This document shows, piece after piece, positions 37,834 through 51,394 of a DNA stretch of 52,061 bases (position 1 is its first letter; every line of letters starts with the position of its first letter). The notes beneath the pieces are model-generated. The model did not search any database and was not told the origin of the DNA. It saw only the letters and a list, made by a program, of their open reading frames with translations. Position numbers and translations under genes: made by a program. Source of the stretch: Deltaproteobacteria bacterium (GTDB lineage Bacteria; Myxococcota_A; Polyangia; Polyangiales; JADJMO01); the NCBI GenBank assembly GCA_022843175.1, contig JALHOE010000038.1:1-52061 (forward strand). The letters are read 5' to 3'.

Positions 37834-38928
37834 TCACTCGGCGGCGCCGAAGTACGGCTGCTCGTCGTCGCTTCGCGCGCTCGACAGACCCGACTGCGAG
37901 CTCTTGCGCGAGGATGGGCAGCCGCGCACGCCGCGCGGGAGGTAGAGGGTGATCTGCGTGCCCTCGCCGAGCTCGCTCTGCACCTCGAGCCGGCCGCCGG
38001 CCTCGCGAACGAAACGATTCACGACCCACAAGCCGAGCCCGCCCCCGGCGGTCTTGGTGGTGAACAGCGGCTCGAACGCGCGGGCGCGCTCGGCGGGCGA
38101 CATGCCCGCGCCCTCGTCGGTCACGCTCACTGCCACGAACTGCTCGCCGTCGATCAGCGCGGAGTAGGTGCGGATGATCAGCCGTCCGCCGGACGGCATC
38201 GCGTCGCGGGCGTTGGCGACCAGGTTGAGGAGGCCGCGCTCGAAGCGCCCACGCTCGATCGTCACCGCGCCGACCTCGTCGTTGAGCGCGAGGACCACGC
38301 CCACGCCCTCGCCGACCAGCCGCTCGATGAGGGGCCTCATCTCGAGGACCACCTCGTTGAGCTGCACCTCCTGCGGCTCGAGCGGCCGCCCGCGGAGAAA
38401 CGCCCGCACGCCGCGAACCAGCTCGCTGGCGGAGGTCGTCGCGCGCCGGAGCTCGGTGACCGTCGCGGCCCCTGTGTCGCCCGCGACCTCGCGGGAGAGC
38501 GCCTCGGTGAGCGCGGAGAGCGGAGTGATCAGGTTGCCGACGTCGTGAACGAAGGCGCCGGCGAACGCGCCGATCGAGGCGAGCCCCCACAGGCGCGCGA
38601 CGTCGTCCGCGGCGTCGCGCGCGACGGTCACGTCGGAGAGGAAGAGGATCGTGCGCGCGCCGCAGGTCCGGCCGTTCACGAGGATCGAACGCTCGCCGAC
38701 CCGCGCCTCCAGCGTGGCGCGACCGCGCGCGCGAAGCTCGACGCGGAACGCCATCCACTGCGGATCGCTCCGGAACGCGGCGATCACGTCCTCGCGACAC
38801 GCGAGCTCGCGCGCCGCGGCGTTGGCGAGGATCGCGCGGCCCTCCTCGTCCATCAGCAGGACCGCGTCGGGTGCGGTCTCGAACACGACTCGCTGCACAT
38901 CGCTGAGGTCTTCGGCGGTAAGCGTCAT
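37834..38928 (-). CDS. cytosolic PAS histidine kinase
   Basis: A 364-residue kinase with no transmembrane segment. Residues about 8-100 are PAS-like (VVFETAPDAVLLMDEEG). The dimerisation helix carries FVHDVGNLITPL, with His128 the likely phosphorylation site; the HDxxN pattern is that of NtrB-like kinases. The ATPase part has the N-box NLVANARDAM, G1 DEGAGM, FEPLFTTK and GGGLGLWVV. It lies 59 bp after a single-domain response regulator on the same strand and should phosphorylate that protein or the NarL-type regulator further upstream. Confidence 0.9.
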   Translation of the reverse strand: MTLTAEDLSDVQRVVFETAPDAVLLMDEEGRAILANAAARELACREDVIAAFRSDPQWMAFRVELRARGRATLEARVGERSILVNGRTCGARTILFLSDVTVARDAADDVARLWGLASIGAFAGAFVHDVGNLITPLSALTEALSREVAGDTGAATVTELRRATTSASELVRGVRAFLRGRPLEPQEVQLNEVVLEMRPLIERLVGEGVGVVLALNDEVGAVTIERGRFERGLLNLVANARDAMPSGGRLIIRTYSALIDGEQFVAVSVTDEGAGMSPAERARAFEPLFTTKTAGGGLGLWVVNRFVREAGGRLEVQSELGEGTQITLYLPRGVRGCPSSRKSSQSGLSSARSDDEQPYFGAAE

Positions 38929-41651: not shown

Positions 41652-42407
41652 ATGCCGTCTTCCTTTCGCGTTTTGCCCGTGATCGCCGTGACTTTGCTCG
41701 GCTGCTCCGGCGCCGACTTCGAGATCGCCCCTGCCACGGATGCCGCAACCGGTGCGGACTCCGCCAACATAGTTGCAGACAGCCGGGCGAGCACCGACAC
41801 CGGCGCACAAGGGGCAAGCGACGCGGTCGGCACGCCGCCGGCCGAAGCGGGCCCCCCGCCGGAGTGCAAGACGCCCGCGCTCGCGTGCACGCCCTCGGAC
41901 AACTACTTCGCGCACCACGATCTCGCGCCGGGCGCGGCGCTGCCGGTCAACGTCAACCTCGAGAACAAGCACGTCGTCAGCTTCCTCACGTCGCATCGCG
42001 GCCGCATCGAGAAGATCGGCCTCCGGCTGCGCCGCAACGATCTGGGCTCCGGGGTCGACGGCAACTTCACCATCTCGGCGTTCTTCCTCCCCTGCCCCGA
42101 CACCTGGATCCCGATCGGCAAGCACGTGCGGGGTGCCGGGGAGGTCTCTGGCGACACCACGTTCTACTTCAACCCCGATACGACCGGCGGGCTCGTGCCG
42201 TTCCTACCGACCGCGGAGAAGGGCGCGCGCATCGCGTTCGTCATCGAGACCACCTCCACGCGCTACTCATGGACGATGATGTCGGCCGCCGTGCCCTCGC
42301 CGAACCCCCTCGGCCATTCGTGGGGCGTGAAGACGGGAACCGCGGCGTGGAAGCTCGGGCCGCAGATCGCCGCGACGATGACCTACATCCGTAGCTGCGC
42401 GGACTGA
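41652..42407 (+). CDS. lipoprotein of unknown function
   Basis: A 251-residue protein with a lipoprotein signal (PSSFRVLPVIAVTLLGC, Cys18) and an Ala/Asp/Thr stalk to about residue 65. The mature domain begins with CKTPALACTPSDNYF and continues as a beta-sandwich-like region (KIGLRLRRNDLGSGVDGNFT, then TRYSWTMMSAAVPSPNPLG). No family is recognised. The last 25 bp overlap the convergent DTW-domain gene. Confidence 0.8.
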   Translation: MPSSFRVLPVIAVTLLGCSGADFEIAPATDAATGADSANIVADSRASTDTGAQGASDAVGTPPAEAGPPPECKTPALACTPSDNYFAHHDLAPGAALPVNVNLENKHVVSFLTSHRGRIEKIGLRLRRNDLGSGVDGNFTISAFFLPCPDTWIPIGKHVRGAGEVSGDTTFYFNPDTTGGLVPFLPTAEKGARIAFVIETTSTRYSWTMMSAAVPSPNPLGHSWGVKTGTAAWKLGPQIAATMTYIRSCAD

Positions 42408-43525
42408 CCGGCGAGGGCGCGCGCGACCGAGAGCGCGGCGCCGTGCCGCGCGCCGGTGCGGTAGGGCGCCCACGACGCGATGGGAGGCGCCCCGAGCGCG
42501 GTCGCCATCTCGTCGACGTCGCCGGCGCGCCGGCCGAGGTGCGCCATCGCCCGGGCGCGGAGCTCGACGCTCGGCTCGAAGCCCTCGCCACGGAACATGA
42601 CCAACGTGAACGAGCCCCACACCGCGAGCGCGTCCCCCTCGCGGAGGAACGCGGCGAACCGCTGGCGAAAGCTCTCGCGGCTCTCGCCCGCGAGCACGCG
42701 CTCGGCGGGGATCTGCGTGTGGCAGGTGAAGCCGGGTGAGAGCGGCCGCGACGGCGCGACGTAGGCCTCGAAGCGCTCGCCCGTCGACACCCGCTCGGCC
42801 ACCGCGTGCACGAGCTCGGGGTGTGGTCCGTGCTCGCTGCCGCGTGGCCATGCGTTGGCCTCGCAGTAGGCGACGACGAGCTCGCGTCCCTCGAGCGGCG
42901 GGCGCTTCACCCGCGGTGGACGCTGCGCCTGCCGCGCGATGGCCGCTTTGAGGTGGCGGTTGTTGCGCTGCTCGTCGGCGATCCGCACCTGGTGCTCGAC
43001 CATCGCCTCGAACGGCGCGAGCACCCGTGCGGCGTCGAGGTCCTCGAGACAGGTGAGCGCCGCGACCGTGGCCTCGATCGTCGACACACAGTGGGCCGCG
43101 GGCTCGCGGCGGATGCGATACCGACTCGGCGCCGAGGGCTCGAACGCGTAGCGTGGCAGGCGCGCGAGCGTGGGGTTCGTGCGGAGCAGCTTGCGCGCCT
43201 GCGGCCACGTGCCGTCGACCACGATGAGCGTGACCGGCGCGCTCGGGGGGTCTCGGCGCAGATCGATCGCGGACGGCCCCGGCGCGAGGAGGATCGCCGC
43301 GCCGGACACCGCTTCGACGAACGCCGGATCGTTCTCCAGCTCCACGCCGACGATGCGCTGCGCCCCGAGGCAACGCTCCACCATCCACGCGGTGCCAATC
43401 GGGTTGCCGGCTTCGCGCGGGTGTTGGAGCACCACGACGCGCGTGCGGGTCTTTACGGTGACGAGGTGCGCGCAGATGCAGACGATCGGCGGACGACCGC
43501 ACCCCTCGCAGTAGGCGCGATACAT
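42383..43525 (-). CDS. DTW-domain tRNA-uridine aminocarboxypropyltransferase-like protein with extra C-terminal domain
   Basis: A 380-residue protein. Residues 1-200 are a DTW domain: zinc-type Cys cluster CEGCGRPPIVCIC (Cys6, 9, 16, 18), LQHPREAGNPIGTA, and the signature DGTW at 104-107 followed by PQARKLL. DTW proteins such as TapT transfer the aminocarboxypropyl group of SAM to tRNA uridine (acp3U). Residues about 210-380 are an extension not usual in the family; its FEAYVAPSRPLSPGFTCHTQ segment recalls DEDD-type 3'-5' exonucleases, but the acidic metal-binding residues are not evident. It lies immediately after the PSI-like lipoprotein gene with no gap and overlaps the convergent lipoprotein by 25 bp. 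Confidence 0.85.
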   Translation of the reverse strand: MYRAYCEGCGRPPIVCICAHLVTVKTRTRVVVLQHPREAGNPIGTAWMVERCLGAQRIVGVELENDPAFVEAVSGAAILLAPGPSAIDLRRDPPSAPVTLIVVDGTWPQARKLLRTNPTLARLPRYAFEPSAPSRYRIRREPAAHCVSTIEATVAALTCLEDLDAARVLAPFEAMVEHQVRIADEQRNNRHLKAAIARQAQRPPRVKRPPLEGRELVVAYCEANAWPRGSEHGPHPELVHAVAERVSTGERFEAYVAPSRPLSPGFTCHTQIPAERVLAGESRESFRQRFAAFLREGDALAVWGSFTLVMFRGEGFEPSVELRARAMAHLGRRAGDVDEMATALGAPPIASWAPYRTGARHGAALSVARALAGQSAQLRM

Positions 43526-45627: not shown

Positions 45628-46248
45628 CTACGAAGGCATCGTGAGCAGGCGTTTGCGGGCGCCCTCGAGGGAGTCGGCGTCGAGCTTGTGGAGCAGCGTG
45701 CGGACCTGGGTCTTGTAGGTGTTGCGCGTGATGCCGCGCTTGCGCTGGACCTCTTCGGCCGCGTGGCCGGCGAGATAGGAGACCAGCAGATCGGCCTCCG
45801 GTCCGCTCAGGCGGTGCTTCGCCGCGGCGCGCGCGACGCGGGCGCGAAGGATCGGGTCGATTCCGGCCTCGCCGGCCAGCGCTTCGATGACGAAGCGGGA
45901 GAGCTCGCCCGGCCCCATCGGCTTGAGCAAGCACGAAGCGCCGAGGCGGTAGGCCTCGTTGACGGCGTCGGGCTCGAGCTCGCCGGTGAGGATCAGCGCG
46001 GGCGCGTGCGGCGCGGTCTCGCGCGCCACGCGGAGGAACTCGATGCCCGAGCCGTCCGGGAGCTTGAGGTCGATGACGAAGCCGCTGATCCGCCGCCGGC
46101 TCGCCGAGAGTCGCGCCGTCGCCGTGCTCAGATCGGACGCGTCGATGCACTCGCGCGAGGGCGCGAGCAGACGCGAGAGCGAGCGCGTGACCGTGGGGTC
46201 ATCGTCGACGAGGAAGAACACTCCCGGTGCGGTCGTCGCTAACTGCAT
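45628..46248 (-). CDS. response regulator with C-terminal helix-turn-helix, end of the HK-ThDP operon
   Basis: A 206-residue regulator. The receiver (about 8-125) has FFLVDDDPTV, phosphorylation site Asp60 in GFVIDLKLPDGSG, Thr in ALILTGE and Lys in CLLKPMG. The C-terminal 70 residues (RLSGPEADLLVSYLAGHAAE, then RNTYKTQVRTLLHKLDAD) form a LuxR-like helix-turn-helix. The ATG at 46248 follows GGAGCGAGC; a GTG at 46218 is possible. It overlaps the citrate-synthase-like gene upstream by 50 bp, so it is the last gene of the operon beginning with the kinase at 51040, and is the likely partner of that kinase. Confidence 0.9.
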   Translation of the reverse strand: MQLATTAPGVFFLVDDDPTVTRSLSRLLAPSRECIDASDLSTATARLSASRRRISGFVIDLKLPDGSGIEFLRVARETAPHAPALILTGELEPDAVNEAYRLGASCLLKPMGPGELSRFVIEALAGEAGIDPILRARVARAAAKHRLSGPEADLLVSYLAGHAAEEVQRKRGITRNTYKTQVRTLLHKLDADSLEGARKRLLTMPS

Positions 46249-47026
46249 GCTCGCTCCGCGGACTCCGCCGCGGCCCACGCCCACTGTACGCGATCGTGCC
46301 CGGGGGAAGCACGCGCAGCTCGGGGGATGGCTCGGTGCCGGCCTCGAAGGCGTTGGCGATGAACACCGGTTGGTTGAGGAAATGGATGATCGCAGCGGAC
46401 TCAACCGGATCGAATCCCATGTCGAGGAGGAGCGCGGCGGTGCCGATCCCGATGTTGGGCGGCAGCCGCCGCTCGTTTTTTACGACTTCGGTGAGAACTT
46501 CCTGGAGTCGAAAATACGGAAGCTGGGCGCGACCGCGGAGGACGACGCGCTCGCGAAGTGCGACGAAGCGCTCGTCATAGGCTCGGAACGGGATGCCGTA
46601 GCCGATCAACCGCTTACGCCCCTGGACGAGCTGTCGCGCCTGCTCGGCGACCACGTCGCGGTCGTCGAGGCGATCCCCGACGGCGTCACGCAGGCTGACG
46701 AGCAGCTCCGCCGCATACCTCGCGGTGGGCGGTCCGATGCGATCGCCCTCGACGACCATGTGCCCCGCCGCGTAGCCGGCGAGGATGCCGCCGTAGGAAG
46801 CGACGACGCGGATCAGCTTGAGCGGCCAGATCCGAGGGTCGGCCACGAGCAGCACCGCGGCGAGATCGTCGAGGATGGCCACTTCTTCGGGCGTGAGGCG
46901 ACGCCCGCCGATCGCGAGCGCGATGAGGCCCGCGGTGCTCTCGTGCGCGACGAGCTCGCCGAACACCGCGTACCCGCGGAATCGGTGCTCCGGGAAGCCG
47001 AGCGCTGCGACGCGCGTCGTGATCAT
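46199..47026 (-). CDS. divergent citrate-synthase-like protein 2
   Basis: A 275-residue protein related to citrate synthase/citryl-CoA lyase. It starts FRGYAVFGELVAH, has a small-domain-like IALAIGGRRLTPEEVAILDDLAAV, then GRKRLIGYGIPFRAYDERF and NIGIGTAALLLDMGFDP, matching the G-x-G-H-P-x-x-x-x-D-P-R and N-V-D-x-x-x-A-x-x-L-x-x-L-G segments of the family. Ile-Pro replaces His-Pro at the first, and no L-H-G-G motif is seen, so normal condensation chemistry is unlikely. It overlaps its partner gene by ATGA and the response regulator by 50 bp. Confidence 0.7.
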   Translation of the reverse strand: MITTRVAALGFPEHRFRGYAVFGELVAHESTAGLIALAIGGRRLTPEEVAILDDLAAVLLVADPRIWPLKLIRVVASYGGILAGYAAGHMVVEGDRIGPPTARYAAELLVSLRDAVGDRLDDRDVVAEQARQLVQGRKRLIGYGIPFRAYDERFVALRERVVLRGRAQLPYFRLQEVLTEVVKNERRLPPNIGIGTAALLLDMGFDPVESAAIIHFLNQPVFIANAFEAGTEPSPELRVLPPGTIAYSGRGPRRSPRSEHAVSDDRTGSVLPRRR

Positions 47027-47589
47027 GGCTCCTCGTAGCGAACGGCGGGCAGGTTGAGCGGGTAGTCGCGGAAGCTCGCGGGCGGCGTCGCGAGCCCCTC
47101 GGCCGCGACGACCGCGATCCGCGCGACCAGCCACACCGCCTCGAGCTGCTCGTCGCGCTCGATGCCGCACTCCGCGAGCATCGCGAAGATCGGCGACAGC
47201 GTCTCGTCGTCGCGCCCGTTGCGCACCATGAACCGCGCCTGCTCGGCGAGCGCGATGGCGCCCGTCCCGAGCACGGCGCTGTGACTGGCGTCGCACACGC
47301 GGGCGAGCGACGCGGCGTGGCTCGGCGCCTCGGCGACCGAGATCGGCGCGAGGAGGATGAGCGCCTGCTCGAACGTGCTCGACTGCTCCTCGGTCGGCAG
47401 CTCACCGGTTAGGGAGAGGAACACGACGTCGCTGAAGCGGTAGTGTCGCGCGAGGTCGGAGCGAACCGCGTAGCCATGGATGCGCGGGTCGGGCTCCGGC
47501 GAGACGACCCGCGCGGTGAGCTTCGCGGGCCACGCGTGCTCGTCGAACGGCGTCCGCTGCTCTCGGTCCCACGGCGCTCGACTGCGCAT
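47023..47589 (-). CDS. divergent citrate-synthase-like protein 1
   Basis: A 188-residue protein. IHGYAVRSDLARHYRFSDVV then FLSLTGELPTEEQSSTFEQA match the N-terminal small-domain region of citrate synthase (I-x-G-Y-x-V then L-x-G-E-L-P-T). A later ARVCDASHSAVLGTGAIALA is where the active-site H-G-G-A loop would follow, but AEQARFM stands there instead. Its start resembles that of the 275-residue neighbour (GYAV and L-x-G-x-x-x-T-x-E), so the two may be paralogues or two parts of one split protein. The start ATG shares its A with the ThDP gene stop (TGATG), and its own stop overlaps the next start. Confidence 0.7.
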   Translation of the reverse strand: MRSRAPWDREQRTPFDEHAWPAKLTARVVSPEPDPRIHGYAVRSDLARHYRFSDVVFLSLTGELPTEEQSSTFEQALILLAPISVAEAPSHAASLARVCDASHSAVLGTGAIALAEQARFMVRNGRDDETLSPIFAMLAECGIERDEQLEAVWLVARIAVVAAEGLATPPASFRDYPLNLPAVRYEEP

Positions 47590-49364
47590 CAGCTCTCGAT
47601 GAACCCGGCGAGGGACTTGGCGCGGTCTCCGAGGGGCGGACAGACCGAGCCGTCGACGCGGACCTCGATGACCGCGGGCCCGCCGCGGCGCAGCGCCTCG
47701 GTGACCGCGCCCTGAATCTGGCCGGGCGAGTCGACGACCCACGACGAGAGCCCCATCGCGCGCGCGATCGCCGCGACCTCGAGGGGGCGACGATACTTCG
47801 CCGCGCGCATCGGGGTGCCCTTGCTGAGGATCTTGCTGCAGTGCCAGGTGATGCCGTGCATGTTGTTGTTCTCGACGATCCAGATCACCGGGACGTCGCT
47901 CTCGGCGGCGGTCAACAGGTCCATCCCGTTCATCGTGAAGCAGCCGTCGCCGATGATCGCGAACACCGGGCGCGAGGGCTCGGCGAGCGCGGCGCCGATC
48001 GGCGCGAGCGTGCCGTGCCCCATCGATCCGAAGCCGAGGTTGATGACGAAGCGCTGGCGCTCGCCGATCGATAGGTGGTGCAGGTTGAACAGCATGTGCC
48101 CGCCGATGTCGGAGAACACGATCGCGTTCTCGGGGAGCACCTCTTGCAGATCGACCCGCCACCGCGCCGGGTGCACCGGCACGTTGTCGCTGGTGCGACC
48201 GGCCGGGTCCTCGTAGCGGCTGTGCCAGCGCGGGAGCGGGGGCGCGTCGGCCCACGTCGACTCGGGCTTCACGCCCTCGCGGAGCTTGCGATGCGTGTGA
48301 TACACGAGCTCGACGAGGATGCTCTGGGCGTCCCCGACGAGCGGCACGTCGACCGGGTAGTTGCGGCCGATGCGGTCGGCGTCGATGTCGAGCTGGATGA
48401 GGCCCCGCGAGGGGAGGAGCTTCGGGTTCCAGTTCATCGTGGTGGTCTCGTTCAGCGAGGCGCCGACGGTGAACAGCACGTCGACGTCGCTGCCCATGAT
48501 CGTGTCGCGCGCGGCGCGGTGACCGGCGACGCCGAGCACGCCGAGCGACAACGGGTGGTTCTCGGGGAACACGCCCTTGGCGCGCGGACTCGTCGCCACA
48601 CGCGCGGGGAACATCTCGACGAGCGTGCGCAGGTGCTCCCTCGCGCCCGCGATCTCGACGCCCGAGCCGACGAGGATCACCGGGCGCTTGGCGGCGAGGA
48701 GCAGCTCGGCGGCCCGGGTGACCGCGGCGCGATCGAACGTGGTGGTCTCCGGCCGGTAGGTCTGCGGATCGAACCACTCCTCGACGAGCGGCTTGTCCCA
48801 GATGTCGACCGGGACGTTGAGGTGCACCGGCCCGGGGCGCCCGGTGAGCGCGAGGCGGAGCGCGCGACGGAGGTGATGCGCCATCGCGCTCGGCGACGTG
48901 ACCATCGCGGAGTACTTGGTGATCGGCCGGAACATCGCCACGATGTCGATGTCCTCGCGGGTCGTCTCCTGGGCGGCGCCCTTGCCGAGCGCGTGCGACG
49001 CAGCCTGGCCGCTGACGACGAGCAGCGGGACGCCGTCGGCGAACGCGCACGCGACGCCGGTGAGCAGGTTGGTCGCGCCGGGGCCGGACGTGCCGGCGCA
49101 CACCGACAGGCGCCGGCCGACGCGGGCGTACCCGTCGGCCATGAACGCCGCGCCCTCCTCGTGCTTGGAGACGATCAACGAGATGTCGTCGTCGCCCTCG
49201 ATCGCCTCGAAGAACGGGTGCAGCAGCCCGCCGGGGATGCCGAACACGAAGCGCACGCCCTCTGCCTTGAGGTACTTGAGGAACACGTCGACCACGCGAG
49301 GCGCGGCCACCGGCGGGGCGGACGGCGCGCGGGGCGGAGGCAGATACGAGATCGTGTTGCTCAT
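47589..49364 (-). CDS. ThDP-dependent enzyme, acetolactate synthase large-subunit-like
   Basis: A 591-residue enzyme of the acetolactate synthase/carboligase family, with all three domains. It has SKHEEGAAFMADGYAR with the activating Glu69, GTSGPGATNLLTG, a central nucleotide-type domain (AAKRPVILVGSGVEIAGA) and the ThDP-Mg motif GDG at 472-474, ending in NN at 499-500. The sequence follows the ALS pattern (SGQAASHALGKGAAQETTR, FRPITKYS), but no small regulatory subunit is nearby and the flanking genes are not of branched-chain synthesis. It probably joins or cleaves 2-oxo acids or related acyl compounds. The ATG at 49364 overlaps the kinase stop (ATGA); its own stop shares a base with the next ATG. 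Confidence 0.88.
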   Translation of the reverse strand: MSNTISYLPPPRAPSAPPVAAPRVVDVFLKYLKAEGVRFVFGIPGGLLHPFFEAIEGDDDISLIVSKHEEGAAFMADGYARVGRRLSVCAGTSGPGATNLLTGVACAFADGVPLLVVSGQAASHALGKGAAQETTREDIDIVAMFRPITKYSAMVTSPSAMAHHLRRALRLALTGRPGPVHLNVPVDIWDKPLVEEWFDPQTYRPETTTFDRAAVTRAAELLLAAKRPVILVGSGVEIAGAREHLRTLVEMFPARVATSPRAKGVFPENHPLSLGVLGVAGHRAARDTIMGSDVDVLFTVGASLNETTTMNWNPKLLPSRGLIQLDIDADRIGRNYPVDVPLVGDAQSILVELVYHTHRKLREGVKPESTWADAPPLPRWHSRYEDPAGRTSDNVPVHPARWRVDLQEVLPENAIVFSDIGGHMLFNLHHLSIGERQRFVINLGFGSMGHGTLAPIGAALAEPSRPVFAIIGDGCFTMNGMDLLTAAESDVPVIWIVENNNMHGITWHCSKILSKGTPMRAAKYRRPLEVAAIARAMGLSSWVVDSPGQIQGAVTEALRRGGPAVIEVRVDGSVCPPLGDRAKSLAGFIES

Positions 49365-51040
49365 GCGCTCTTGGCCTTTCGTATCTTCACGATCTTGCCG
49401 ATGATGTCGCTTCGCGGCTCGGCGTCGTTGGTGGGCGGCAGGGACTTGGCGGTCGGTTTCACCGGCAGATAGATCCAGAACGTGGTGCCCACCGCGGGTT
49501 TGGACATGACCTCGAGCCGACCGCCGATCTTGTCGAGGAGCTGAACGACGACCGACAGCCCGAGGCCGTAGCTGTTCGCGCTGCGCGTCGCCTGCTCCGA
49601 GCCGCCGGGCTGGAACACCTGGTCGATGGTCTCGGGATCGATGCCGCGACCGCTGTCGGACACCTTGAGGACGAGGAAGCCGGGGCTGCCGTCGACCTCG
49701 ACCACGATGCTCCCCCGCTCGGTGTACTTCGCGGCGTTGCTGAGGAGGTTGTCGGTGATCCGGTCGACCAGGAGCGAATCGGCCAGGATCGTGTCGGGCG
49801 CCTCGCGGGTGCGGAACACGCTCGCGCGGATGTCGCGACCGTGCACCATCGCGCGGAGGCGACGACGAAGGCGCTCGGTGAGAGCTTCGACCTCGAGCGG
49901 CTCGGGCGCGAGCTGGTGCGCGAGCGACGTCTGGCCGGCGGAGATCTCCATCAGCTCGCGCAGCATGCGGCGCATGCGCTCGACCGCGTCCTCGAGCTCC
50001 TGGAGCACCTGCGGCCCCTCGTTGCCGAGTCGGTGGGCGTTGGCGCCGAGGTACTCGAGGCCGCTCTGCATCACGAGCAGCGGGCTGCGGAGATCGTGCG
50101 AGAAGCCGCGTAGCTCGCGGACCCGCGCCTCTTGCGACTGCTGCATGCGCTCGATCACGCGCTGGATCGTCGCGGCGCGGCCGGCCGCCTCGTGCTCGAG
50201 CACGCGGCTCCATTCACGCTGACGATGATGGAACGCGAGGAGCTCGCGGCGCGCTTCGGCCTCTTCGCTCGCGAGCTCGCGCAGCGCACGATTCTGCTCC
50301 TCGCCGACGGCGAGGTTGGCGCGTCCGGTGCGGTGCTGCTCGAACGCAAACCCGATCGCGCCGCCCAGGGCCGGCAGCGACATCATCGCCACGGCCTCGA
50401 GCACCCCGAACCGCGCGGCGAGCGTCGCGGCGGTGGCACCGGCGACGGTGCCGAGCAAGCTCGGCAGCCAGCTCCTGCGCGTGAAGTAGCGAAGCTGGTA
50501 CTCGCACGCGGCATCGCCCTTCGCGACACACGAGATCTCGTGCACGGTCGCGCGGGGGAGCTTCCACAGCGTCGGGATGTCGGCCGTCTGCGCCTGGCGC
50601 ACGAGGCAGTTGAGGCGACTGATCTTGCGGATGCCGTCGAAGCGAACGTGAAGCGCGGTGCGCGAGAGCGAGACGATCTTCGGCTGGCCGATGGTGCACA
50701 CGAGCTTGTAGGTTTGCTCGGCGAGCGAGTAGATCGCCGAGGGCGTGGTCGCCCACAGGGCGAAGCGCATCGGCCCGTAGCCCTCGGCCATGCGGTAGAC
50801 CGCCGCCCCGCGGAACTCCTCGTCCGACGTCATCTCGGCGCGTGCGCCCTCGAGGAAGCTCTCGAACTGCGCCTGCGAGATCCAATGATTGCCTCCGTCG
50901 AGCTGCGACGGATCGACGCCCGCTTGCGTGCCGATGCGCAGCGGCAGCTCCGCTCCGCGGTTCGCGCCGAGCCAGCGCGCGAAGGGCAGCAGGATCTTCG
51001 CGTTGTATTCCGCGCTTCCTGTGGTCGATGGGCTATTCAC
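49361..51040 (-). CDS. membrane histidine kinase with V4R-like sensor domain
   Basis: A 559-residue kinase and first gene of the five-gene operon. The N-terminal half (about 50-185) resembles V4R/heme-NO-binding-associated sensors: EGYGPMRFALWATTPSAIYS, then HEISCVAKGDAACEYQ with Cys171 and Cys179. Two hydrophobic segments (about 191-210 and 213-232) are followed by a coiled coil (240-305). The dimerisation helix has GFSHDLRSPLLVM with His315. The ATPase domain has NLLSNAAKYT, VSDSGRGID and YGLGLSVV. I chose the GTG at 51040 because AGAGGGAG lies 8 nt upstream; the longer in-frame reading covers the promoter region. It may sense a small hydrophobic ligand or a redox state. Confidence 0.9.
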   Translation of the reverse strand: MNSPSTTGSAEYNAKILLPFARWLGANRGAELPLRIGTQAGVDPSQLDGGNHWISQAQFESFLEGARAEMTSDEEFRGAAVYRMAEGYGPMRFALWATTPSAIYSLAEQTYKLVCTIGQPKIVSLSRTALHVRFDGIRKISRLNCLVRQAQTADIPTLWKLPRATVHEISCVAKGDAACEYQLRYFTRRSWLPSLLGTVAGATAATLAARFGVLEAVAMMSLPALGGAIGFAFEQHRTGRANLAVGEEQNRALRELASEEAEARRELLAFHHRQREWSRVLEHEAAGRAATIQRVIERMQQSQEARVRELRGFSHDLRSPLLVMQSGLEYLGANAHRLGNEGPQVLQELEDAVERMRRMLRELMEISAGQTSLAHQLAPEPLEVEALTERLRRRLRAMVHGRDIRASVFRTREAPDTILADSLLVDRITDNLLSNAAKYTERGSIVVEVDGSPGFLVLKVSDSGRGIDPETIDQVFQPGGSEQATRSANSYGLGLSVVVQLLDKIGGRLEVMSKPAVGTTFWIYLPVKPTAKSLPPTNDAEPRSDIIGKIVKIRKAKSA

Positions 51041-51103
51041 GCGCGCGGCTCCCTCTGGAGAGATGCGACAGCCCGAGACGAATCTCGTGGGCCGTCCCAG
51101 GGT

Positions 51104-51270
51104 CTTTCGTAAATTTTGCAAAGTGTGTCGCGGCCCCGGTGGGGTGTCAGTCCCCACGGGCGTCACGGGGCAGGCCAAAACGTCTGAACCACACCCTGCG
51201 CAGTAGACCTACCGCGCGAGTTCCACGAGGAACCGGGTCACTCTGCTCTATAGAGTTTTGCGAAATCACA
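51104..51270. promoter_or_regulatory. AT-rich regulatory region upstream of the HK-ThDP operon
   Basis: The 354-bp gap 51041-51394 contains two AT-rich patches unusual for this genome. One at 51104-51123 carries TTTCGT-AAATTTTGCAAAG. One at 51246-51278 carries the perfect palindrome CTCTATAGAG (51246-51255) and TTTTGCGAAA. The motif TTTTGC(G)AAA occurs in both. They are plausible promoter and operator DNA for the leftward operon starting at 51040; no gene is supported in this gap. Confidence 0.5.
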
Positions 51271-51394
51271 AAATGAACAATCTTCCGAGATCACCCCGTG
51301 GGGGGAATGCCGGGTCGAATGAACCGCTCGAACATCCCTCCACCCCGTGCGCCCGACGGCTGCGCGTCCTCGCGGTCGTGCCCCGGTGGAGTCG

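Follow-up and report, generated by a model that had tools for sequence, protein, structure and literature searches.

The Cqs and Lqs systems are known cassettes in which an acyloin-type synthase gene adjoins a sensor kinase gene, some of them with a response regulator gene as well (PMC3376566). Enzymes of the BbmA/CsmA type, which depend on thiamine diphosphate (ThDP), are described as homologues of CybE, a maker of alpha-hydroxy-beta-keto acids (PMC12395478). CybF is annotated as a 3-oxoacyl-ACP (acyl carrier protein) synthase, and a furanolide-type synthesis has been proposed for the enhygrolides of marine myxobacteria (PMC8777810). On the sensory side, V4R domains are sensors of aromatic compounds and are also found on kinases such as PcrS (PMC10715001). 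Here we describe an operon on contig JALHOE010000038.1 of a Myxococcota genome (GCA_022843175.1), the 52,061 nucleotides of which are referred to as the window. It encodes a sensor histidine kinase, a putative ThDP-dependent carboligase, two citrate-synthase-like proteins (CS1 and CS2) and a response regulator. The first four genes constitute a conserved unit among Myxococcota. We read it as an operon for the biosynthesis of a small molecule, with a kinase that senses this product or a precursor of it, a reading to which we lend about even credence.

Recurrence of the kinase-ThDP-CS1-CS2 block

Five open reading frames (ORFs) were identified on the - strand of the window, running leftward in the order kinase, ThDP enzyme, CS1, CS2 and response regulator. 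Neighbouring genes overlap throughout, with ATGA at the kinase/ThDP junction, TGATG at ThDP/CS1, ATGA at CS1/CS2 and a 50-bp overlap of CS2 with the regulator gene; the genes, order, coordinates and overlaps proposed in a first-pass annotation of the sequence were all borne out by these ORFs.

Relatives were sought with CS2 in a survey sample of 284 Myxococcota genomes and the neighbourhoods of those obtained were then read. A separate scan of a genome collection with CS2 alone gave no relative and a scan with a ThDP alignment was used in its stead; viral contigs were also scanned, with no match. The order kinase-ThDP-CS1-CS2 was found at loci L024, L025, L027, L028, L047, L050, L053 and L068 (L053 and L028 being the same contig), with L050 belonging to a named strain, Paraliomyxa miuraensis SMH-27-4. 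The closest relative is L047, the ThDP protein of which is 81% identical to that of the window and the junctions of which are identical to the window's (-4, -1 and -4 bp), with similar junctions at other loci (-4 and -1 recurring). Because the four-gene order recurs with the same or similar junctions, the block is beyond chance.

Variants of the arrangement were also identified. Locus L026 is rearranged to kinase-CS1-CS2-ThDP with overlaps still present (-4, -11 and -4 bp), and L126 is a contig fragment with kinase-ThDP-CS1. At L030 and L032 the order is ThDP-CS1-CS2, and behind CS2 lies a gene for a PAS hybrid kinase (L032) or for a PAS protein truncated where the contig ends (L030). At L048 and L049 the kinase and ThDP genes are kept, with a ketoacyl-synthase-III-type (KAS III) gene where the CS pair would be; it follows the ThDP gene at L049, and a relative of it is found at L048.

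The ThDP clade was detected in 9 of the 284 genomes (1040-1115 bits; next score 415) and an ortholog of the kinase sensor in seven (178-333 bits; next score 104), in every one of which it adjoins the ThDP gene. All seven are among the nine; in the remaining two, the gene directly behind CS2 encodes a PAS protein or PAS kinase. Co-occurrence of kinase and ThDP gene across the sample gave a Fisher p of 1.3e-12, uncorrected for relatedness. CS1 stands beside the ThDP gene in all nine genomes, and two genomes have CS1 together with another kind of ThDP enzyme.

The first-pass annotation had asserted a tight coupling of enzyme and kinase genes, which is upheld by their repeated adjacency in Myxococcota loci, and had regarded wide occurrence of the ThDP and CS-like genes without the kinase and regulator as evidence to the contrary. 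Such evidence was obtained only in part: CS1 and CS2 were found without a kinase at L029 and L031, but there they accompany a different ThDP enzyme. At 12 of 14 distinct loci of the ThDP clade a kinase lies within 2.6 kb, the remaining two being L032, with its PAS kinase, and L030, with its PAS protein.

The ThDP enzyme

The ThDP protein belongs to the TPP_enzyme N, M and C families of Pfam, and its catalytic Glu69 and cofactor motif are intact (HEEGAAF; IGDGCF...ENNN). Its nearest chains in the PDB were BbmA (1.3e-136), with an identity of 43%, and CsmA (1.2e-103). In a tree of 61 sequences the Myxococcota ThDP clade (100/100) was sister to a clade of Elusimicrobia sequences plus BbmA (93/87) and was set apart from acetolactate-synthase-like controls; CsmA lay on a long branch and its placement is unsure. 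A plain acetolactate synthase was rejected as an assignment on account of the grouping with BbmA and of a score of 398 bits against an NCBIfam cut-off of 538. By analogy with the BbmA/CsmA-type enzymes, we infer a carboligase that joins keto acids. The placement beside BbmA supports the biosynthetic reading of the operon.

A second group of ThDP proteins (L033, L034, L035 and L036), approximately 29-32% identical to that of the window, was found together with a ketoacyl synthase II and just one CS-like protein, which likewise was without the lyase His motif where read.

CS1 and CS2

Matches of both proteins to known families were weak. CS1 scored 21.4 bits with Pfam Citrate_synt (cut-off 27) and CS2 had no Pfam match, while the NCBIfam models for citryl-coenzyme A (CoA) lyase matched CS1 with an E value of 4e-7 and CS2 with 1e-8, both far under the curated cut-offs. 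Comparison to the citryl-CoA lyase of Hydrogenobacter thermophilus (6hxp) gave 2e-11 over the length of CS2 and 1.7e-5 for CS1. A model of CS1, with a mean predicted local distance difference test score (pLDDT) of only 67.5, aligned to the citryl-CoA-lyase fold with Z 10.2-10.7 and a root-mean-square deviation (rmsd) of 3.0-3.2 over ~140 residues. By profile and predicted fold, both proteins are thus placed with the citrate synthases and citryl-CoA lyases.

At the catalytic His and Asp positions of CS2, other residues were found in 10 of 10 aligned sequences, with G(F/Y)G(V/I)...DER and NIG in place of GYGHR and NVDG of 6hxp, and the segment of CS1 matching the catalytic His/Asp region is diverged or missing. 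True citrate synthases or lyases were rejected since neither protein keeps these residues, and from their sequences both look catalytically dead.

Pairs of CS-like genes near ThDP genes were also identified in Mariprofundus, a Desulfobulbaceae bacterium, a Gammaproteobacterium and a Cellvibrio metagenome-assembled genome. A TonB receptor gene is present at all four loci and a short-chain dehydrogenase/reductase (SDR) gene at three, and the lyase His and Asp motifs were likewise not seen in these pairs. The Mariprofundus locus (L065, 2685-11444) is a single gene run of TonB receptor, CS-like pair, ThDP enzyme, ABC-type substrate-binding protein and hybrid kinase. At L025 (9246-10469, - strand), CS2 was found to carry a C-terminal RidA-type domain (Ribonuc_L-PSP, 4.6e-28).

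The sensor domain of the kinase

An AlphaFold2 model of kinase residues 1-218 (mean pLDDT 82.2) was compared to known structures using VIA-align. It matched H-NOX (Z 12.8, rmsd 3.3, 167 residues), the N-terminal domain of VirS (Z 12.8, rmsd 4.0, 172 residues) and TRAPP Bet3 (Z ~8.5). Chains of DmpR and MopR were absent from the structural matches listed, which does not rule such matches out, and a PDB sequence search with the sensor gave no meaningful match.

Three Cys and one Glu are invariant in the sensor alignment in the arrangement C-x22(23)-E-x2-C-x7-C, corresponding to C145, E168, C171 and C179 of the window kinase. This signature of a zinc site, predicted from its residues, was found in 10 of 10 relatives tested, with Cys spacings of 26-27 and 8. 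The zinc ligands of DmpR are Cys151, Cys177 and Cys185, giving spacings of 26 and 8 (PMC7264223), and phenol-sensing V4R domains in general possess three Cys and one Glu (PMC10715001). No His is conserved in the sensor alignment, nor does one occur at residues 92-130 of the window kinase, and so haem ligation of the H-NOX type is unlikely; an H-NOX haem sensor was rejected on this ground despite the fold match.

The sensor is probably a receptor for a hydrophobic small molecule, given the modelled V4R/H-NOX-type fold, the invariant zinc-site signature and the lack of a haem histidine. A sensor of hydrophobic ligands fits the first-pass proposal of a kinase signal that the enzyme complex produces or reads.

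The response regulator

The last gene of the window operon encodes an intact receiver (Pfam Response_reg). No regulator reading frame was found after CS2 at L047, where ~215 bp are left on the contig, and tblastn with the regulator gave no match behind CS2 at other four-gene loci. A search of 20 chosen genomes for full-length homologues gave, at best, a paralogue of 43% identity at another place in the genome of the window and proteins of 33-34% from genomes that lack this kinase-ThDP pair, and no ortholog was found in the other carriers checked. From these searches the regulator appears to be a local addition outside the recurring block. The five-gene unit, with kinase and regulator enclosing the enzymes as the first-pass annotation had it, was rejected for the lack of both a tblastn match behind CS2 in the four-gene loci and an ortholog in the other carriers checked; of the order that it had suggested looking for in other Myxococcota, the four-gene part recurs and the regulator does not.

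The final ~17 residues of the window CS2 are an out-of-frame reading of the regulator start, as the L047 CS2 stops at ...PRRTPRATGG*. The regulator may nonetheless be the partner of the kinase in this genome.

Interpretation of the operon

The gene order with its overlaps and recurrence, the family placements, the keeping or loss of active-site residues and the zinc-site signature are seen in the sequences; from these we infer a chemistry, a ligand and a route of phosphotransfer. The ThDP enzyme, to judge by its place beside BbmA, would condense a pair of alpha-keto acids and release one CO2, giving an alpha-hydroxy-beta-keto acid or an acyloin. CS1 and CS2, taking the position where some related loci carry KAS III, may be its partner, a heteromer by which the ThDP intermediate is bound or finished. 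The product, or an aromatic or branched keto-acid precursor of it, would then bind the kinase sensor in its zinc-braced hydrophobic pocket, by which the cell could gauge the output of the operon and adjust expression or behaviour. In this genome the regulator encoded last may take the phosphate, and elsewhere the partner of the kinase would have to be unlinked. A diffusible cell-cell signal is a possible product.

Several observations weigh against a kinase that senses the product of its own operon. CS1 and CS2 are missing from L048 and L049. The window CS1 is short by ~35-40 residues in comparison to its relatives and CS1 is split over two frames at L028 (9205-9884) and L053 (10731-11416), by frameshift or assembly error, and so CS1 may be dispensable. 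No transporter is conserved in the Myxococcota unit. The Pfam V4R match of the sensor is weak (15.1 bits; cut-off 31), for which reason it is named V4R-like here, and no His or Trp was found at the distance from the first Cys expected from His100, Trp128 and Cys151, the phenol-anchoring reference of DmpR (PMC7264223), as judged by spacing only. Lower-scoring relatives of the sensor were found in 33 genomes that lack the ThDP clade, and one in the window's own genome (L046, contig C86, 5273-7051), the sensor part of which has a weak Pfam Arabinose_bd match, is fused to a Ser/Thr protein kinase; the sensor class is therefore not specific to this chemistry. In favour of such a kinase stand the recurrent block with its overlaps, kept even in the rearranged L026, the placement of the ThDP enzyme near BbmA, the KAS III-type gene at L048 and L049, and the fold and zinc-site signature of the sensor. 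Also in favour, in a wider set reaching beyond Myxococcota, a kinase or receiver gene was found within 2.6 kb and on the same strand at 28 of 40 ThDP loci (profile score of at least 370 bits) versus 1 of 57 lower-scoring control loci. This count, however, mixes related loci and several kinds of two-component genes and includes loci (L126-L129) added after the pattern was already suspected.

This adjacency is a lead and no test of function. Seven Elusimicrobia loci (L051, L054, L055, L058, L059, L060 and L062) have a receiver gene 41-206 bp from the ThDP gene, which at L051, the one examined, encodes an HTH_17 and receiver protein directly upstream of it. At L070, L127 and L128 the order is regulator-ThDP-KAS III-hybrid kinase, and at L129 ThDP-KAS III-kinase. 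Tentatively, and with more doubt than belief, these loci could be viewed as a widespread, undescribed class of signalling cassette. In it, an acyloin- or butenolide-like messenger would come from a BbmA-like ThDP carboligase, working with a dead citryl-CoA-lyase-fold pair or a KAS III, and would be received by the two-component protein encoded next to it, which is the V4R-like kinase in Myxococcota and a response regulator or hybrid kinase in other groups.

The same loci bear on the main alternative, namely that the kinase responds to an aromatic or hydrophobic cue from outside and turns on a metabolite operon without reading its product. Regulators at other ThDP loci are quite different from one another (the upstream Elusimicrobia response regulators, Cache/GAF/PAS hybrid kinases and a GGDEF-EAL protein), as would be expected if any local sensor served, and V4R domains are known to detect aromatic compounds, including that of the kinase PcrS (PMC10715001). 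However, across the Myxococcota sample, kinases of this ortholog group were found nowhere but beside this ThDP clade, and the predicted chemistry of the operon is of the kind that such domains bind. We regard pathway-specific regulation of this sort as plausible, if on balance not the probable explanation.

A catabolic or salvage operon, in which the kinase detects a substrate that is split or decarboxylated by the ThDP enzyme and CS1 and CS2 handle the CoA ester, is considered improbable. The V4R regulators DmpR and MopR do control catabolic genes, and the TonB receptor and frequent SDR gene beside the CS pairs of Proteobacteria could mean uptake and use of a compound; but the Myxococcota unit has no conserved CoA ligase, oxidoreductase or transporter, the CS proteins have lost the His and Asp of the lyase and the nearest characterised ThDP enzymes are biosynthetic. 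Very improbable is a moonlighting enzyme trio that reports metabolic state through direct contact with the kinase or regulator, for although overlapping genes favour co-translation and pseudoenzymes frequently serve as scaffolds, the fully conserved ThDP active site implies that catalysis matters and the regulator is outside the conserved unit.

Should the kinase read the product, as in the biosynthetic reading, the operon would give an orphan sensor its ligand and point the way to new myxobacterial small molecules, ThDP-based butenolide synthesis having been proposed in myxobacteria without any known role. P. miuraensis SMH-27-4, as a named carrier, makes the idea testable. Cassettes of synthase and sensor kinase are already known, those of acyloin type using an enzyme dependent on pyridoxal phosphate (PLP); what is new here is a putative ThDP carboligase, a paired, dead-looking citryl-CoA-lyase fold and a kinase with a probable sensor of hydrophobic molecules in one overlapping operon. 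No published description of this gene set was found in searches on CsmA/BbmA, CS-like with ThDP, and ThDP with kinase, most subscription papers lying outside their coverage.

Gene layout and neighbouring genes

Coordinates of the operon and its features are given in Table 1. A promoter scan of the 354-bp gap upstream of the kinase gene found no consensus sigma-70 promoter, and the region showed little conservation in alignment with L047. Another PAS histidine kinase is encoded on the same strand ~7 kb past the regulator (37834-38928), with no link to the operon seen, and 42383-43525 encodes a DTW-domain protein with a long C-terminal extension.

Table 1. Features of the operon, in window coordinates
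Feature	Position	Strand	Basis
Sensor histidine kinase, GTG start, 559 residues; V4R/H-NOX-like sensor, hydrophobic helix region, linker, HisKA (His315), HATPase_c	49361..51040	-	ORF, Pfam, ortholog beside ThDP gene in other Myxococcota loci
Sensor domain, residues ~1-187; predicted V4R/H-NOX/TRAPP-type fold, zinc-site signature C145, E168, C171, C179	50480..51040	-	AlphaFold2 model, VIA-align, alignment
Hydrophobic helix region, residues ~187-236; possible membrane hairpin	50333..50482	-	Hydropathy maximum 1.63 over residues 211-231
Putative ThDP-dependent carboligase, BbmA-like, 591 residues; catalytic Glu69 and GDG...ENN cofactor motif intact	47589..49364	-	Pfam TPP_enzyme N/M/C, tree, motifs
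CS1, citryl-CoA-lyase-fold, 188 residues; internal deletion of ~35-40 residues relative to relatives	47023..47589	-	Profile, PDB match, model
CS2, citryl-CoA-lyase-fold, 275 residues; other residues at the catalytic His and Asp positions, ~17 C-terminal residues within the overlap with the regulator gene	46199..47026	-	Profile, alignment
Response regulator, 206 residues; intact receiver (D15-D17, D60, T88, K109), C-terminal part resembling FixJ/NarL	45628..46248	-	Pfam Response_reg
Upstream region, sole free space ahead of operon, 354 bp	51041..51394	-	No consensus sigma-70 site

Comparison with known systems

CS1 and CS2 share fold and profile with citryl-CoA lyase (6hxp, and the citryl-CoA lyase module of ATP-citrate lyase), but are two different subunits side by side, neither of which keeps the catalytic His and Asp. 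The kinase sensor shares with the V4R domains of DmpR, MopR, PoxR and PcrS the Cys-Glu-Cys-Cys signature, the Cys spacing of 26 and 8 and a fold superfamily; it differs from them in its sub-threshold Pfam score, in that no phenol-anchoring His/Trp was seen at the expected spacing and in the hydrophobic helices that follow the sensor.

With CybE-CybF of cyanobacterin furanolide/butenolide synthesis the operon shares the type of ThDP enzyme, CybE having been compared by its published description, and at L049 a KAS III gene joins the same kinase-ThDP pair, as CybF goes with CybE. In contrast to that system, CS1 and CS2 stand in place of the ketoacyl synthase, no CybF-like ketoacyl synthase gene being found in the window, and a sensor kinase gene lies inside the operon.

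The likeness to CqsA/CqsS of Vibrio and LqsA/LqsS/LqsR of Legionella would consist in a synthase gene beside that of a sensor kinase; the kinase-ThDP adjacency is kept at 12 of 14 distinct clade loci, and a signal is a possible product of the enzyme. The Cqs/Lqs synthase is PLP-dependent, whereas the window enzyme is ThDP-dependent and accompanied by a CS-like pair, and the V4R/H-NOX-type sensor is unlike theirs. As Pfam and NCBIfam scans found no PLP-dependent synthase gene of the CqsA/LqsA type in the operon, it is no member of the Cqs/Lqs cassettes, yet by analogy it is these that it would most resemble in its working.

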